Of a DNA stretch of 64,000 nt, positions 20,815-31,565 are shown in pieces. This stretch comes from a virus. Made by a program: the position numbers and the translations under genes. The notes beneath the pieces are model-generated. The model saw only the letters and a program-made list of their open reading frames with translations, ran no database searches and was not told the origin of the DNA. Position 1 is the first letter of the stretch, and each line of letters starts with the position of its first letter. The stretch lies in IMG/VR virus record IMGVR_UViG_3300032073_005220, positions 1 through 64,000 of that record. The stretch is one strand, 5' to 3'.

Positions 20815-21774
20815 ATGAAAAATCGCAAAGGTTTTACTCTCATCGAATTACTGGTAGTTATTGCAATCATCGGCGTTTTAGTTGGATTATTATTACCTGC
20901 TGTTCAACAGGCTAGAGAAGCAGCACGAAGAATGTCATGTGCAAATAATTTAAAACAGCAAGGACTTGCTATGCACACATACATGGATGCACAAAGATAC
21001 TTTCCTGCTGCTGCATGGACTATAGATTCTGCTGGATCATCTCCTACTGGTAATCGTTCTGGTACAGAACATAGTTGGAGAGCATTCGTTCTTGCTAATT
21101 TAGAGCAAGGTAATACTGGTTATGACTTTAATAAAAACTGGTGGGAAAATACTCAGGCTATCTCTTTGAACGCATCTGTATTTATATGTCCAACAGCAGT
21201 TCCTCCTAATGGTGGTTATGCTAATATTGATGGGCCTACCAGAGATAGCGATAGTGCTGCACCAAGTTTAAATCCTAATAATCTTGGATATACAGATTAT
21301 GAAGTATTTACTGGCGTTAAAGATAAAATCTTTCCTGCTGCTAGCGATCCTTATGCGGCGAAGGATCGTAATGAAGGATGTTTAATTAAAGATGCTGTTA
21401 CTAGAGATGCTCATATTAGAGATGGGTTTTCTAATACTCTTATGATTGTAGAGTGTGCAAGTAGACCTGATGTTTATAAAGCAAGTAATGGTAGATCGCC
21501 AACAGGTGATACTAACCAGTGCATTGGTTGGGCAGATTCATTAGGGCCATTTAAATTACATGGTGTTGATTCTAATGGAGATAAATGTAAGAACTGTGCT
21601 GGTAATGTACCTTTTAATGTAATTAATGATGGTGAAGCATATAGTATGCACCCCGGCGTAATGAATTGCGTATATGCAGATGGTTCTACTAGAACTATTA
21701 ATGATAATGTAGATTTAAGAGCATTTGCTGCTGCTATTACCCGTGCAGGTGGAGAAGTACAAACCATTGATTAA
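20815..21774 (+). CDS. DUF1559 pseudopilin-like protein
   Basis: The 319-residue protein starts with a type IV prepilin/pseudopilin signal: [20 protein letters not shown], cut by prepilin peptidase after the glycine. This continues into [17 protein letters not shown], the hallmark start of the DUF1559 family. Near the C-terminus is the H-X9-DG motif ([12 protein letters not shown]). DUF1559 proteins are massively expanded in Planctomycetes and thought to be exported. A phage copy would depend on host prepilin processing. It has its own 100-base leader and appears slightly less AT-rich than neighbours (by eye), suggesting host origin. Confidence 0.92.
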
Positions 21775-24162: not shown

Positions 24163-26808
24163 ATGAAACTTGCAGATCGTACAGTTGAAATTCACTCAAA
24201 CGGTGTTGATGCTAGTAATCAGTTCAGCATTGCACAAACCAGCAAAATGTTTAAGATTTTGTCAGATTCATTATATTCTGACAAGGTAATGGCAGTTATT
24301 CGTGAACTGTCTACAAATGCCAACGATGCCCACGTTGCATCAGGCAATAGGAACCCTTTCAAGGTCAGCTTACCTACACAAGCCAACCCTAACTTTACGG
24401 TGAGAGATTATGGTACTGGATTATCTCAAGAAGATATGGAAGAACTCTATACAACTTATGGGGCTAGTAACAAGAATGACAGTAACGATTTTACTGGTTG
24501 TCTTGGTCTTGGTTCTAAGAGTCCATTTGCTTACACTAAAAGTTTTAGCACAACTTCTTTCTTCAATGGCAAAGCGTACAATTACATAGCGGCTATGGAC
24601 GAAGGCGGCGTTCCTAGTTTGAGTTTGTTCGGAGTCGCTGAAACTGATGAGCCTAATGGTCTTGAAATTAGTTTTGCAGTAAAGCAAAGTGACTTCCAAG
24701 AGTTTACTAATAAGTCTAAGAGAATATTCCATTACTTTAAGACTAAGCCAATGATGGAGGGTGGTACTTGTAATCTTCTTCAGAACCATGCGTATTCTCA
24801 TACTAATACTATTATAGAAGGGACTAACTGGCGTGTTGGTAGAATCTCTGATAATGACGACAAGTATCCTAGCACATATAACAGTCCCGGTGCTGGTATT
24901 GTGGCTATCATGGGTAATATTGCATACCCAGTAGATTCCGATAAGATTATCGGCAAAGAAGAACAACAGCAAAAGAGTGACGCTATCCAAAGATGGAACA
25001 GAGCGTTTAAGAAAGCAGACGTAGATAACTGGACTAACTTAGTCAAAGAGATTCTAAACTCTGGCATGTATCTTGAAATTACCTGCGACATTGGTGAACT
25101 AGAGATGGATGTTAGTAGAGAAGGTCTACAGTATACTAAGTCTGTTATTAAGACTCTTAGAGAAAAGACTCAAGACATTTATCTGCAACTCAAGAGCAAT
25201 ATGTCAACTAAGGTTGAAGAGTGTACTAATCTTGTAGATGCTTACCAGACATATTATAAGCTGGCTGATATTGCTGGTGGATATACCGCTGGTGCAGAGT
25301 GGGTCGATCCAGAAGGCAAGCAACACGATCTGTCTGCTGGTGAAGATTTGGATTATAAATTGGGTAAGCACAAACAGTTGTATGTTATTAATTATCGTAC
25401 TGCTAGTCATCGTTCTAAGAGAATGTTATATCTAACAGATAAAATCCATCACGAAAGTCTACAGGGTAGATCGTCTAATTATTGGGATAATAAGCGTAAG
25501 AGTAATCCTCTAGCCTTCTTTGTCTGCGATACTAGAAGTCCTGAGACTGCCAAGAAGATTGCTATTAGATATTGTAATCAGAATGATTGTATGGCATATC
25601 TTATGGTTGACACTCAAAATCCAGCAGAAGATTCTGGTGAGGGTTTCGCTAAACTTATCAAAGATATTGGTGGAGAAGAGAACGTCAAGAATATCTCTGA
25701 GTACCGTAGTCTGCTGCAATCTAGCACCAAGGGAAGAACTGGCACTGGTGCTGGTATGATTAGTAAGGACGAAATCTTTCTGCTAAAAAGTTCTAAAGAT
25801 TATCATACAGATGAGTGTTCTGATCTTAGCGGCAATAATCTTAATGACTCTAATATACTTAGTGAATTAAGTGATAGTCTGGTAGAAGGACTAGAAGATG
25901 CTGAACGAGTAATCTATGTTCCTATTACTAGATATAAGTCTGTTAGTCCTTATCCCGATCTTCATAAGATTTATAGTCTATCAAGTAAAGACAATGTTTT
26001 AGGTAGTGTGCTATTCAAGAGATATAATATCTATGCTATCAAACAAAGTTCAGTAGCCAAACTACAAAAGCAAGGTATCAATCTGGTTTGCTTTAACAAA
26101 TGGTTTAAGAGCAAGGCTGCAAAAATGTCTAAGAAATTAAGAGAAGAAGTAGGTAAGTATGATGCAGTCATAAACTACTGTGACAAAGAGTATTCTACTT
26201 CAGATTTTAAGAAGCAAAGAAGTTGGAGTAGTCAGCCTGAGCGTTCAGATAGAGTTGTAATGGCTAATCTTTTAAATATCTATGGTCTTGACTACAAAGA
26301 CTATATTAAAAATGAGACAGTCACTAAGGCTATGGATGAATGGCTACTTATGTACTACTTTGCTCAGGTTGCAAATAGTGAATACTTTAATCTTAGAGTA
26401 TTTAGTAGACAAAGACTTGAACAGCATGTAAATAACATAGCAAGTGAATACAATATCGTAGAAGACGCAAAGGATATTCACACCAAGATTCTTAAACTAG
26501 ACAATATGCTTTGTGAATTTAAGAAACTATATGGTTACGAAGAATTGCCATCTGGTAAGAAATCACGTAGTCAGGCAATCATCAAGACCCTGCCTAAGAT
26601 GGATGCTCTTAGAAAAATTCTTAAAGGTGCTATTGACAGTTCACCGATACTAAAGTATATTGTTAGTGGTAACGATGAGTTGGATATTGAGAAGATCAAA
26701 AATGCTGCTCCTACAGATATTCACAACAATGGTTACTATGGTCGAGACAAATGGTTTGACAATGTTGAACTCAGCGAACTGAGAACAGCAGTAGGAAATT
26801 TGGTTTAA
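24163..26808 (+). CDS. rIIA: rIIA-like protein (GHKL ATPase domain)
   Basis: The 881-residue protein resembles T4 rIIA, the membrane-associated protein that protects against exclusion by lambda Rex. The N-terminal 200 residues form a GHKL ATP-binding domain: ELSTNANDAHVA (the E-x-x-x-N-A box), VRDYGTGLS (DxGxG) and GCLGLGSKSPFAYT (GxGxxS). The rest is long and poorly conserved, with VSREGLQYT resembling a transducer segment. T4 rIIA is about 725 residues, so this one is longer. It is followed by rIIB, as in T4. Confidence 0.88.
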   Translation: MKLADRTVEIHSNGVDASNQFSIAQTSKMFKILSDSLYSDKVMAVIRELSTNANDAHVASGNRNPFKVSLPTQANPNFTVRDYGTGLSQEDMEELYTTYGASNKNDSNDFTGCLGLGSKSPFAYTKSFSTTSFFNGKAYNYIAAMDEGGVPSLSLFGVAETDEPNGLEISFAVKQSDFQEFTNKSKRIFHYFKTKPMMEGGTCNLLQNHAYSHTNTIIEGTNWRVGRISDNDDKYPSTYNSPGAGIVAIMGNIAYPVDSDKIIGKEEQQQKSDAIQRWNRAFKKADVDNWTNLVKEILNSGMYLEITCDIGELEMDVSREGLQYTKSVIKTLREKTQDIYLQLKSNMSTKVEECTNLVDAYQTYYKLADIAGGYTAGAEWVDPEGKQHDLSAGEDLDYKLGKHKQLYVINYRTASHRSKRMLYLTDKIHHESLQGRSSNYWDNKRKSNPLAFFVCDTRSPETAKKIAIRYCNQNDCMAYLMVDTQNPAEDSGEGFAKLIKDIGGEENVKNISEYRSLLQSSTKGRTGTGAGMISKDEIFLLKSSKDYHTDECSDLSGNNLNDSNILSELSDSLVEGLEDAERVIYVPITRYKSVSPYPDLHKIYSLSSKDNVLGSVLFKRYNIYAIKQSSVAKLQKQGINLVCFNKWFKSKAAKMSKKLREEVGKYDAVINYCDKEYSTSDFKKQRSWSSQPERSDRVVMANLLNIYGLDYKDYIKNETVTKAMDEWLLMYYFAQVANSEYFNLRVFSRQRLEQHVNNIASEYNIVEDAKDIHTKILKLDNMLCEFKKLYGYEELPSGKKSRSQAIIKTLPKMDALRKILKGAIDSSPILKYIVSGNDELDIEKIKNAAPTDIHNNGYYGRDKWFDNVELSELRTAVGNLV

Positions 26809-26832
26809 GGTTTTTATCACAGGAGTTTAATT

Positions 26833-27672
26833 ATGAGTGTTCCTTTTATGTGGGTTGACGGTAACTTAACGGTGATCTTAAAAAATAAGGCTCACCAAGT
26901 AATTCCAGATCATACTAATTACAAGTTGATTTTGGAAGCACTACCAACAGCAACAGAAGATGAGTTGCTAGAACTGGTAGATATTGAAAAAGCTATTGCT
27001 ACTTTTAGTCAAGGACAAGTATCAATCGTAAATGGTAAAGTAATGTTTGAGGGCGAAGAAGTTCATGGTAGTATCAGTAAGAGAATTATAGAATTTATGA
27101 GTAAAGGCTTACCTTTTCAGCCTCTTGTAAATTTCTTAGAGAATCTTATGAAAAACCCAAGTATGCAGAGTCAGCAAGAACTGTATGATTTCTTGGAACA
27201 TGAGAATCTACCTGTTACTGAAGACGGATGCTTCCTTGCATACAAAGCAGTCAACAGTGACTTTAAAGACAAGTGGAGAGGAACATTCGACAATAAGGTT
27301 GGTCAGGTCTGCGAAATGCGTCGAGCAAAGGTAGACGACAATAGAGGTAGAGGATGTTCTGCTGGACTTCATGCCGGGGCATTAAACTATGTTGCAAATT
27401 ATGGGAGCGTGGACGCTGGTGACAATATTGTGATTGTTAAAATCAACCCTGAAGATGTTGTCAGTGTTCCTAGCGATTGCAACTGTGAAAAACTTCGCAC
27501 TTGCAAGTATGAAGTAGTCGGTCTTTATCAAGGAGAATTGCCAAAGCCTCTTTATAAGGCTGAGTTTGAGGCAGATTCTTACGTTGATGAAGATGAGTAC
27601 TCAACAGTTTATGACGAGTATGATGAAGACTACTGGGATCAGTTTGAAGACGAAGACGATGAAGAATTTTGA
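26833..27672 (+). CDS. rIIB: rIIB-like protein
   Basis: The 279-residue protein lies 24 bases after rIIA, behind TATCACAGGAG. It has the rIIB blocks: LPFQPLVNFLENLMKNPS, ELYDFLEHENLPVTEDGCF, LAYKAVNSDFKDKWRGTF and CSAGLHAGALNYV. The end is a strongly acidic Asp/Glu/Tyr tail. T4 rIIB is of similar size. Together with rIIA it gives the best evidence that the DNA is from a T4-like phage, and the pair may counter abortive-infection defences. Confidence 0.88.
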   Translation: MSVPFMWVDGNLTVILKNKAHQVIPDHTNYKLILEALPTATEDELLELVDIEKAIATFSQGQVSIVNGKVMFEGEEVHGSISKRIIEFMSKGLPFQPLVNFLENLMKNPSMQSQQELYDFLEHENLPVTEDGCFLAYKAVNSDFKDKWRGTFDNKVGQVCEMRRAKVDDNRGRGCSAGLHAGALNYVANYGSVDAGDNIVIVKINPEDVVSVPSDCNCEKLRTCKYEVVGLYQGELPKPLYKAEFEADSYVDEDEYSTVYDEYDEDYWDQFEDEDDEEF

Positions 27673-28244: not shown

Positions 28245-28646
28245 ATGCAAGATGAATGGCTAGACATAGTTAACTTAGATAAGTTGGTTAACTTTAGCAG
28301 AAAAGTTGTTTACGCTAATTTAGGAGAGGAGTACAGTGATGTCTCCGATGCTGGTTTTTTGGAGTTGGTAGAAAACATGCCAGAAGATCAAATGTCAGAG
28401 TTAGATAATCTTCTGTCTATGCCAGAAGCAAGGGCCATATTCAAACCATTTGTTAAACACAAAAGAAATAAAAAAACATTGAGCGTTAAGGTAACTATGT
28501 TAGAGTCAGACTATGATAATGTTTTAAGACAACTGAGTGAAAGAATGATATCTAATATCGTCAGAAACTTGGTCAAGAAAGGATTAGTTGAATCTGCATT
28601 TGACGAAGATAAGAATGATTTTGTTTTTTGGATTAAAAAAGATTGA
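28245..28646 (+). CDS. hypothetical protein, C-terminus like gene at 4653
   Basis: The 133-residue protein has a helical N-terminal half (LDKLVNFSRKVVYANLGEEY, MPEDQMSELDNLLS). The C-terminal module, LVKKGLVESAFDEDKNDFVF then WIKKD, is shared with the protein at 4653. Function is unknown. It lies seven bases after the previous gene with a weak AGGA site. Confidence 0.48.
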   Translation: MQDEWLDIVNLDKLVNFSRKVVYANLGEEYSDVSDAGFLELVENMPEDQMSELDNLLSMPEARAIFKPFVKHKRNKKTLSVKVTMLESDYDNVLRQLSERMISNIVRNLVKKGLVESAFDEDKNDFVFWIKKD

Positions 28647-28663
28647 AAGAAATTGGAGCAAAA

Positions 28664-29563
28664 ATGTCTAATTGTGTTCGTCCGTCAACATTCGACGGCA
28701 TTGTGGGTCAGCAGGACGTTGTTCAACGCTTGAGGATCATCGTAGCTGGCTGTAAAAAAACTAGGCAAGCTATGTCTCATACTTTAATAGACGGGCCTCC
28801 CGGCCTTGGTAAGACTACCATAGCTAGTGCCATAGCTAAAGAGATGGATGTGAATCTATATACTGTGAATGCGGCAAATATTAGAAGTATAAAACATATT
28901 ATTCCATACTTGATGGGTTTAGAGGGACGATCTGTATTGTTTATTGATGAAATTCACAGACTTCCTAAATTGGTAGAAGAATTTTTATATCCCGTGATGG
29001 AAGATTATCGTATGGATATTCTTACTGATGGAAAACCTGAAACTATTGATCTTCCTGTGTTTACGTTAGTAGGTGCTACAACAAGTGGCGGCAGTTTAAG
29101 TCAGCCTTTCTATGATAGGTTTGTTATTAAAGAACATCTAAAGTTTTACTCTGCTGAAGAGTTAGCTAAACTAGCAGGATCAAATGCTGACAAGATTGGA
29201 GTTGATGTGTCTCCAGAACAAATGATTCAGATAGCTAGAAGAAGCAAAGGTACTCCCAGGATTTTAAACGCAAGACTACAATGGTATAGAAATTACACTT
29301 CTTTTTATGAAGATAAAGAATGTACTATGGACGATGTGTTTAGTAGTCAGGGCATAGACGAAAACGGCTTTGATTGCAATGACAACTCGTATCTACAAGT
29401 TTTAAAAAATAACAGAGGTAATCCTTTGGGTATCAAAAGTATATCTTCAATGACCGGCATAGCTATGGAAACTATTGAAAATAATATAGAGCCTTACATG
29501 GTCAGAATGGGATATGTTGTTAGAACTCAAAAGGGTAGAGTAGTAGGGAATGGTTGTCCATGA
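28664..29563 (+). CDS. RuvB-like Holliday-junction branch-migration ATPase
   Basis: The 299-residue AAA+ protein matches RuvB: PSTFDGIVGQQDVVQRL, Walker A GPPGLGKTT, Walker B LFIDEIHRL, sensor region LVGATTSGGSLSQPFYDRF, and the helical lid with SKGTPRILNARL. It ends in the winged-helix domain (LGIKSISSMTGIAMETIENN). It is about 35 residues shorter than bacterial RuvB. No ruvA or ruvC is present in the window, so it may use host RuvA or act as another clamp-type loader. The ATG at 28664 follows TTGGAGC. Confidence 0.85.
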   Translation: MSNCVRPSTFDGIVGQQDVVQRLRIIVAGCKKTRQAMSHTLIDGPPGLGKTTIASAIAKEMDVNLYTVNAANIRSIKHIIPYLMGLEGRSVLFIDEIHRLPKLVEEFLYPVMEDYRMDILTDGKPETIDLPVFTLVGATTSGGSLSQPFYDRFVIKEHLKFYSAEELAKLAGSNADKIGVDVSPEQMIQIARRSKGTPRILNARLQWYRNYTSFYEDKECTMDDVFSSQGIDENGFDCNDNSYLQVLKNNRGNPLGIKSISSMTGIAMETIENNIEPYMVRMGYVVRTQKGRVVGNGCP

Positions 29564-30183: not shown

Positions 30184-30218
30184 ATTTAGCCATATTCTAC
30201 TATCTGATTGCTCCATAA

Positions 30219-30245
30219 ATGCACCTTTTCGGTGTATTTTTTTTT
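30219..30245 (+). terminator. rho-independent terminator after the SDR gene
   Basis: ATGCACC (30219-30225) pairs with GGTGTAT (30231-30237) around a TTTTC loop, followed by an unbroken T run to 30245. It ends the transcript about 60 bases after the reductase stop. The TTCGGTGTATT string also found at 2646 and 16620 is part of this stem. Confidence 0.72.
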
Positions 30246-30256
30246 GGAGATATATA

Positions 30257-30562
30257 ATGTCAAATACTTTAGAAATATTACTGATAATAACTTTAGCCAT
30301 ATTAATTTTTAGTGCTGGTCTATATGTTGGTAGATTTATGAACAATAGTCATACAGAAACCAAACCCTCTAGCTTTTTGAAAAGCCAAGGTAGAAAGAAT
30401 ACTGGTCAAAATAGCAATATAGAAATTGATGATACAAAAGTGGTTTTAAAAGTAGACACAGGTGGTATGGAGAAAAAATTTGACAAAATGACAGAATCTA
30501 AAAGTGTCAAAAATGATATTTCTAGTTCTGTAAACAAACTTAAAAGCATGAAAGGTAAATAA
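30257..30562 (+). CDS. membrane-anchored protein with disordered tail
   Basis: The 101-residue protein has an N-terminal transmembrane helix (EILLIITLAILIFSAGLYVG, about residues 5-24) and a cytoplasmic-looking Ser/Lys/Asn-rich tail (DDTKVVLKVDTGGMEKKFDK). It ends one base before the actin-like gene, so it could be the membrane tether of that filament; this is inferred only from position and layout. Confidence 0.55.
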   Translation: MSNTLEILLIITLAILIFSAGLYVGRFMNNSHTETKPSSFLKSQGRKNTGQNSNIEIDDTKVVLKVDTGGMEKKFDKMTESKSVKNDISSSVNKLKSMKGK

Positions 30563-30563
30563 T

Positions 30564-31565
30564 ATGATAGGTCTTGATGTCGGCACAAGTTTTATTGTTG
30601 CTTCTTCTTACAATGGAGATAAAATCGAGTTTAATGACTTTAGAGATGCCTTTTATGTAATTAAACCAACCACACCTATTGCTACAAAGATGGTAGAAAA
30701 AGGTCTGAAGGGTAAAATATTTATTAAAGATACAGATGGTTCTTTTGTGATACTAGGAAAAGACGCTATAGAAAAAGCAGTAGAAAGAAATGAAACTGCT
30801 CGCCGCCCTATGTATAGAGGCGTAGTATCTGTTAAAGAAAAAGACGCGAAAAGAATATTGGCTTATATACTAAAAGAAGTTGTAGGTCAAGCAAGCGAAC
30901 CTAACGAAAAGCTGGTTTTCTGTGTTCCTGCGCAGCCAGTGGATCAAGAAGATGATGATTTTGACGTAGGCTATCATGAGGATGTAGTAAAGACTATCTT
31001 ATCAGAAGTTGGATATGATGCTAGGTCAGTAAACGAAGCTGAAGCATTATGTTATTCTGAATTAGAAGATAGCGATTATACCGGGATTGGTATTAGTTGT
31101 GGGGCAGGTATGACAAATGTTTGTGTCATGCTTAACGGCGAACCAACCGTAGTCTTTAGTACAACAAAGTCAGGTGATTGGGTAGACCGTATGAGTGCTG
31201 TAGCTACCGGAGAACCAGATAGCGTTGTTCAGGTTGAGAAAGAAGGTGGTGGTTTTAAAGTAGGCGAACCAAATGATAGTCCTGTATTAAGTGCGGTAGC
31301 ATCTTATTACGACAGACTAGTAGAGTATACAGCCAAACAATTATCTTCAGCTTTAGCTGGACACAAATCGTTACCTAAATTTAAAAATGCTATTAAAGTT
31401 GTAGTTGCTGGTGGCACATCACAGGCAGATGGATACATTGAGAAACTTCATGAGAAATTATTAGCAGCAGAATTCCCTTTAGAGATAGAAGTAGTCAAGC
31501 ACGCCGCCGATCCACTTCATTCTGTATCCAAGGGGTGTTTAATTGCTGCTAGTATACTAGAGTAA
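30564..31565 (+). CDS. actin/Hsp70-fold ATPase (actin-like protein)
   Basis: The 333-residue protein has the three nucleotide-binding motifs of the actin/MreB/ParM superfamily: phosphate 1 MIGLDVGTSFIVAS at the start, phosphate 2 GIGISCGAGMTNVCVMLNG near residue 170, and the adenosine motif VVVAGGTSQADGYI near residue 278. Length fits MreB/ParM-type filament proteins, and no Hsp70 substrate-binding domain is attached. It may form filaments that move DNA or organise the membrane. The upstream membrane-anchored gene may be a partner. Confidence 0.75.
   Translation: MIGLDVGTSFIVASSYNGDKIEFNDFRDAFYVIKPTTPIATKMVEKGLKGKIFIKDTDGSFVILGKDAIEKAVERNETARRPMYRGVVSVKEKDAKRILAYILKEVVGQASEPNEKLVFCVPAQPVDQEDDDFDVGYHEDVVKTILSEVGYDARSVNEAEALCYSELEDSDYTGIGISCGAGMTNVCVMLNGEPTVVFSTTKSGDWVDRMSAVATGEPDSVVQVEKEGGGFKVGEPNDSPVLSAVASYYDRLVEYTAKQLSSALAGHKSLPKFKNAIKVVVAGGTSQADGYIEKLHEKLLAAEFPLEIEVVKHAADPLHSVSKGCLIAASILE

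Follow-up and report, generated by a model that had tools for sequence, protein, structure and literature searches.

Volactin (VolA, HVO_2015; Pfam PF25216) has been described as an actin of the haloarchaeon Haloferax volcanii, where it forms dynamic filaments in cells whose tips are attached to the membrane, for which as yet unknown binding factors have been proposed (PMC10869688). The same paper, which is the main one on volactin, contains no mention of phages or viruses, and passages on volactin from two further papers deal with the haloarchaeal volactin only. A survey of huge phages mentions tubulin and not actin. No description of viral volactins or of a volactin tether was found in the literature searched, which was mostly open-access, so that this absence is not proof.

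The locus reported here lies in a window of 64,000 nucleotides (the whole stretch of DNA that was analysed), which belongs to an IMG/VR virus record of 157,014 bases that is without end repeats and possibly a fragment. Two genes are found exactly where a preliminary description, made from the letters of the window, had placed them. An ORF of 101 aa, referred to below as the tether, is separated by a single base from an ORF of 333 aa on the same + strand, referred to as volactin, and only short minus-strand ORFs compete with these frames. Relatives were detected in 296 IMG/VR stretches, of which the best 80 were fetched (clade A). The features of the locus are as follows.

30217..30245, + strand: terminator-like hairpin (30217-30239) with a T-run, 5' of the tether gene
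30257..30562, + strand: tether gene, 101 aa, predicted single-pass membrane protein, with a homologue directly upstream of volactin in 80/80 other clade-A loci
30275..30331, + strand: predicted membrane helix, tether residues 7-25 (hydropathy 2.55 over 19 residues)
30419..30559, + strand: conserved tether tail, residues 55-101 (from conservation and dN)
30518..30553, + strand: C-terminal motif ISSSVNKLKSMK, tether residues 88-99, putative actin-binding helix
30564..31565, + strand: volactin gene, 333-aa actin-family ATPase (from PF25216, model and fold matches)
30570..30590, + strand: phosphate 1 motif GLDVGTS, volactin residues 3-9 (D5, G7 and T8 invariant)
31029..31055, + strand: connect 1 region, volactin residues 156-164 (Glu158 invariant)
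31083..31118, + strand: phosphate 2 region GIGISCGAGMTN, volactin residues 174-185 (Ser178 replaces Asp)
31407..31424, + strand: adenosine motif AGGTSQ, volactin residues 282-287 (G283 and G284 invariant)

On sequence grounds, the 333-aa ORF belongs along its entire length to the volactin family, an actin family. It matches PF25216, whose curated cut-off is 35 bits, with 223.5 bits (E 6.3e-66) over positions 3-321 of the 321 in the profile. The score for membership of MreB_Mbl (PF06723), 20.9 bits, is below the cut-off of 27 for that family, and both bit scores and identity place the protein nearer to volactins than to MreB. Identity to the Haloarcula volactin is 36% over 98% (E 2e-53), and to the Natrinema volactin likewise about 36%. 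The initial reading as an actin-like ATPase was thus right as to the superfamily and overlooked the volactin family. Searched as a single sequence, volactin has no good match among PHROG families or PDB sequences; the viral-family profile reaches MamK at E 5e-7, a weak sequence match. The dN/dS of volactin ranges from 0.006 to 0.057 (at most 0.06), which shows strong purifying selection, and its surface is very strongly conserved throughout. This dN/dS range, together with the E-value of 6e-66 to PF25216, argues that the match is not due to chance. Sugar kinase, chaperone and MreB proper were dropped as identities, the closest family and fold being neither Hsp70 nor sugar kinase.

The structure of volactin was predicted from 83 diverse viral volactins (pLDDT 93.4, pTM 0.90), an earlier model from a shallow alignment having been poor in subdomains IB and IIB. 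Our model shows a predicted actin-superfamily fold of the filament type. Among solved structures the model is nearest to the MamK filament (TM 0.74/0.76), next to the three-stranded BeeR filament (TM 0.72/0.69) and then to MreB, while the first DnaK appears at rank 30; PilM and FtsA are also among the matches. Identity in the fold alignments is only about 16-22% to MreB and MamK and about 18-22% to MamK and BeeR, and the best matches among predicted viral protein structures are only about 13-15% identical to volactin. Confidence in the model is good for subdomain IB, whereas the IIB region falls short of that of MamK by about 21 residues. The actin-superfamily assignment of the preliminary description is therefore borne out by the model, neither IB nor IIB being missing, and chaperones rank below MamK, BeeR and MreB, so that the protein does not group with chaperones or sugar kinases.

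The actin motifs of volactin are DVGTS (phosphate 1), NEAEAL (connect 1), GAGM (phosphate 2) and GGTS (adenosine). The presence of actin-superfamily motifs had been correctly recognised from the letters, with one correction: phosphate 2 opens with Ser178 and not with Asp. In volactins this motif reads S-x-G-[AS]-G-[ML], in contrast to D-x-G-x-G-T in textbook actin, and in the alignment to MamK Ser178 lies opposite the Asp of VDIGAGTTD. Because Ser178 is invariant in the 83 viral volactins and in the archaeal and bacterial volactins aligned, it is a trait of the family. Absence of the phosphate-2 Asp suggests that ATP hydrolysis may differ from that of other actins. If the H. volcanii volactin has the same Ser, then by analogy the change from Asp to Ser would not abolish assembly.

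The tether contains one hydrophobic helix (residues 7-25) followed by a polar tail, and all 82 copies are single-helix, in keeping with the membrane anchor proposed earlier. Clade-A tethers are about 100 aa long and share a common plan, in which the helix is N-terminal, the linker varies and the tail is conserved and ends like ISSSINKLKNMKG. The co-occurrence of both genes in relatives, which had been named as a check, is found without exception: the tether adjoins volactin on its upstream side in every other clade-A locus fetched (82/82 when the two copies of the window itself are included). The outer neighbours in these loci vary, with 8 families above the tether and 16 below volactin, and this variation indicates that the pairing of tether and volactin is specific. 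The membrane half of the tether drifts while the tail stays conserved, and in 8/8 comparisons the dN of the tail is below that of the front part. No known domain was found in the tether, including no known DNA-binding domain. On average, the tethers carry a negative net charge ahead of the helix and a positive one behind it; under the positive-inside rule the tail would then lie in the cytoplasm.

The spacing of the two genes agrees with the operon-like arrangement suggested before, and a hairpin with a T-run does lie 5' of them. However, terminator-like sites in the stretch are near chance level (2, compared with 1.0 +/- 1.1 in shuffles, so that about one is expected by chance). Upstream of the operon, the window carries RIIA- and RIIB-like genes (24163-27672) and a RuvB-like AAA+ gene (28643-29563) with RuvB N- and C-terminal domains, to which clamp loaders also match; a relative of the latter is the gene above the tether in 36/78 loci. 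Shortly downstream of volactin come an HNH gene and a gene for a secreted, trypsin-like protease, and positions 31576-56506 hold a long series of sugar-related genes including glycosyltransferase-25 and epimerase-like ORFs.

Clade-A phages are tailed phages. Of seven other clade-A records tested for the large terminase, five gave a clear match (E below 1e-20), as did both huge phages described below; the match in the record of the window is weak and interrupted. Assignment of hosts by terminase or RIIA similarity was uninformative. A pseudopilin-like gene with a DUF1559 domain is located at 20815-21774 of the window (PF07596, E 2.5e-39). DUF1559 is present in 4 clade-A records, including that of the window, and DUF1501 in 6, while neither is present in the clade-B and clade-C records tested. 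DUF1559 has been described as a family that seems to be confined to Planctomycetes, a group in which FtsZ has been lost throughout (PMC10632474). Presence of both domains suggests, and does not prove, that the hosts of clade-A phages are Planctomycetota or relatives.

Two further phage clades were reached from huge phages, namely clade B from LR745208 (485 kb), with 30 loci, and clade C from LR756511 (595 kb), with 108 loci. In an unrooted tree of 38 volactins, which contains volactins only, a fully supported branch splits off each of the three phage clades and likewise the haloarchaea, and the haloarchaea join phage clade B at 96/89. Viruses with a haloarchaeal-type volactin were searched for and none was found. 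The contigs that carry bacterial chromosomal volactins are 61-172 kb long, and the neighbouring genes are of housekeeping type; besides the centre genome, 3/50 bacterial genomes of one phylum have a volactin above the cut-off (L221, L222 and L225). When cellular genomes were scanned with the clade-A alignment, the only hits were three short contigs from metagenome bins; these are probably misbinned phage, and their host labels were discarded.

Each of these groups has its own upstream partner. Clade-B partners are mostly about 180-260 aa in length and without a membrane helix, and have a FIP-type motif and a C-terminal helix, e.g. SDALSALKALRK; a profile of their tails locates a partner in nearly every clade-B locus, either directly upstream or within about 2 kb. 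The clade-C partner is 70-90 aa long, ends in WAIPDF...FGK and is present in at least 65/81 loci. Most of the remaining clade-C loci have a GIY-YIG-like ORF between volactin and the usual place of the partner (e.g. L128, L161, L192 and L203). Because partners in clades B and C have no clear membrane helix, anchoring in the membrane is not a general property of the partners of volactin. Directly upstream of the haloarchaeal volactin lies a multi-TM membrane protein of the DUF7139 family (L093, 2869-3825; L094, 2971-3894), a family also found in H. volcanii. Bacterial chromosomal volactins are preceded by two TM-bearing genes, each with a FIP-like motif and a similar C-terminal helix.

The tails of these partners were compared using a 12-column profile built from clade-B partners only, whose segments were hand-aligned after the archaeal tails had been seen. 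With this profile both haloarchaeal DUF7139 proteins score above all 1,099 background proteins, and their scores are reached by 1 of 4000 shuffles each. For the tether of the window the number is 17 of 4000 shuffles, and the best-matching segment sits at the C-terminus in 34/35 clade-A tethers; bacterial partners reach only the level of about 5% of shuffles, at the same C-terminal place. When the profile was aligned automatically, the haloarchaeal proteins ranked 1 and 2 of 1,139 (E 0.6-1.5), the tether of the window ranked only 47, and clade-A and bacterial partners were not found. Profile-profile comparison of the tails gave the same register in each pair, with scores not above those of controls. 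As a detector of other partners, a clade-A tail profile was not discriminating. At the level of sequence, a tail motif common to clade-B phages and haloarchaea is supported, and its presence in clade A and bacteria is suggestive.

The explanation we favour, at a probability of about 0.75, is that the two genes form a phage cytoskeleton module in which a volactin filament is anchored to the inner membrane via the tail of the tether. Volactin, an actin-family ATPase, would most likely polymerise into MamK-like filaments during infection, with ATP driving filament formation. The tether would be a single-pass inner-membrane protein with its tail in the cytoplasm, and the short conserved helix at the end of this tail would hold the filament, probably at one end. 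Volactin would then be attached at a tip, like its archaeal counterpart, whose filaments touch the membrane by their tips. The filament might position replicating DNA, capsids or the membrane itself.

A filament that moves or centres replicating phage DNA, as AlpC or PhuZ do, with the tether as its fixed point, is a narrower form of this explanation. The role is plausible because AlpC and its adaptor AlpA carry phage DNA and push it to the membrane (PMC4446434), and genes for recombination and replication, e.g. the RuvB-like AAA+ gene, are found close to the operon. However, neither a DNA-binding partner nor a centromere-like repeat was found beside the operon, and in clade A the partner is located in the membrane and shows no known domain, which leaves DNA positioning, and with it the DNA-organising role put forward in the preliminary description, a possible but rather unlikely function. 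It could also be argued from the Ser in place of the phosphate-2 Asp, from the short IIB and from the presence of PilM and FtsA among the fold matches that volactin is a non-polymerising actin-fold ATPase which, as PilM or FtsA-type partners do, serves a membrane complex as its switch or scaffold. Against this, the archaeal member of the family polymerises in cells (PMC10869688). The closest folds, moreover, are the filament structures of MamK and BeeR, and we regard a non-polymerising ATPase as improbable. Some phage proteins are known to act on the cytoskeleton of the host, and with its partner located in the membrane volactin might join or poison host MreB or membrane growth, the tether delivering it to the membrane. 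However, the low identity to MreB and MamK in fold alignments makes co-polymerisation unlikely, and the very strong conservation of the whole surface fits self-assembly better, so that interference with the host is very improbable.

Beyond the membrane-anchored filament of clade A, it is tempting to propose that volactin and an upstream protein with a short C-terminal actin-binding helix form an old actin-anchor module, common to archaea, to bacteria and to large phages of at least two clades and perhaps a third. The N-terminal half of the partner would have been exchanged according to its task, with membrane helices in archaea, bacteria and clade A and a soluble domain in the huge phages; phages of FtsZ-less Planctomycetota would build a membrane-attached scaffold, and DUF7139 would be the missing tip anchor of the haloarchaeal volactin. 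Taken jointly, these statements are tentative and less likely than not. DUF7139 is in any case a testable candidate for the factor by which archaeal volactin is attached to the membrane at its tips.

Volactin, described as a haloarchaeal actin, is now found in hundreds of uncultured phage contigs that fall into three separate clades, as well as on a few bacterial chromosomes, and is preceded in each group by a small partner gene. The phage actin is related to the shape-determining volactin of haloarchaea, and belongs over its full length to the same family as VolA of H. volcanii. The Haloarcula and Natrinema volactins also have Ser in phosphate 2 and also have a membrane-protein gene directly upstream. 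However, the haloarchaeal volactin is cellular and its DUF7139 partner is multi-TM, whereas here the actin is phage-encoded and its partner, about 100 aa in length, is 1-TM. AlpC and AlpA of the Corynebacterium prophage CGP3 (PMC4446434) are likewise a phage actin and a small partner encoded alongside; AlpA is a DNA-binding adaptor, in contrast to the membrane-anchored partner here, and AlpC is set apart by its description, not by sequence. MamK and BeeR are the best fold matches to the phage volactin (TM 0.69-0.76), and MamK also organises membrane structures, but MamK retains the phosphate-2 Asp and the phage volactin does not. PhuZ is a phage-encoded cytoskeleton as well, but has an unrelated tubulin fold, and the actin-type fold of volactin agrees with the earlier proposal of a system different from it. 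With this module, the short list of phage cytoskeletons would gain a membrane-anchored actin.
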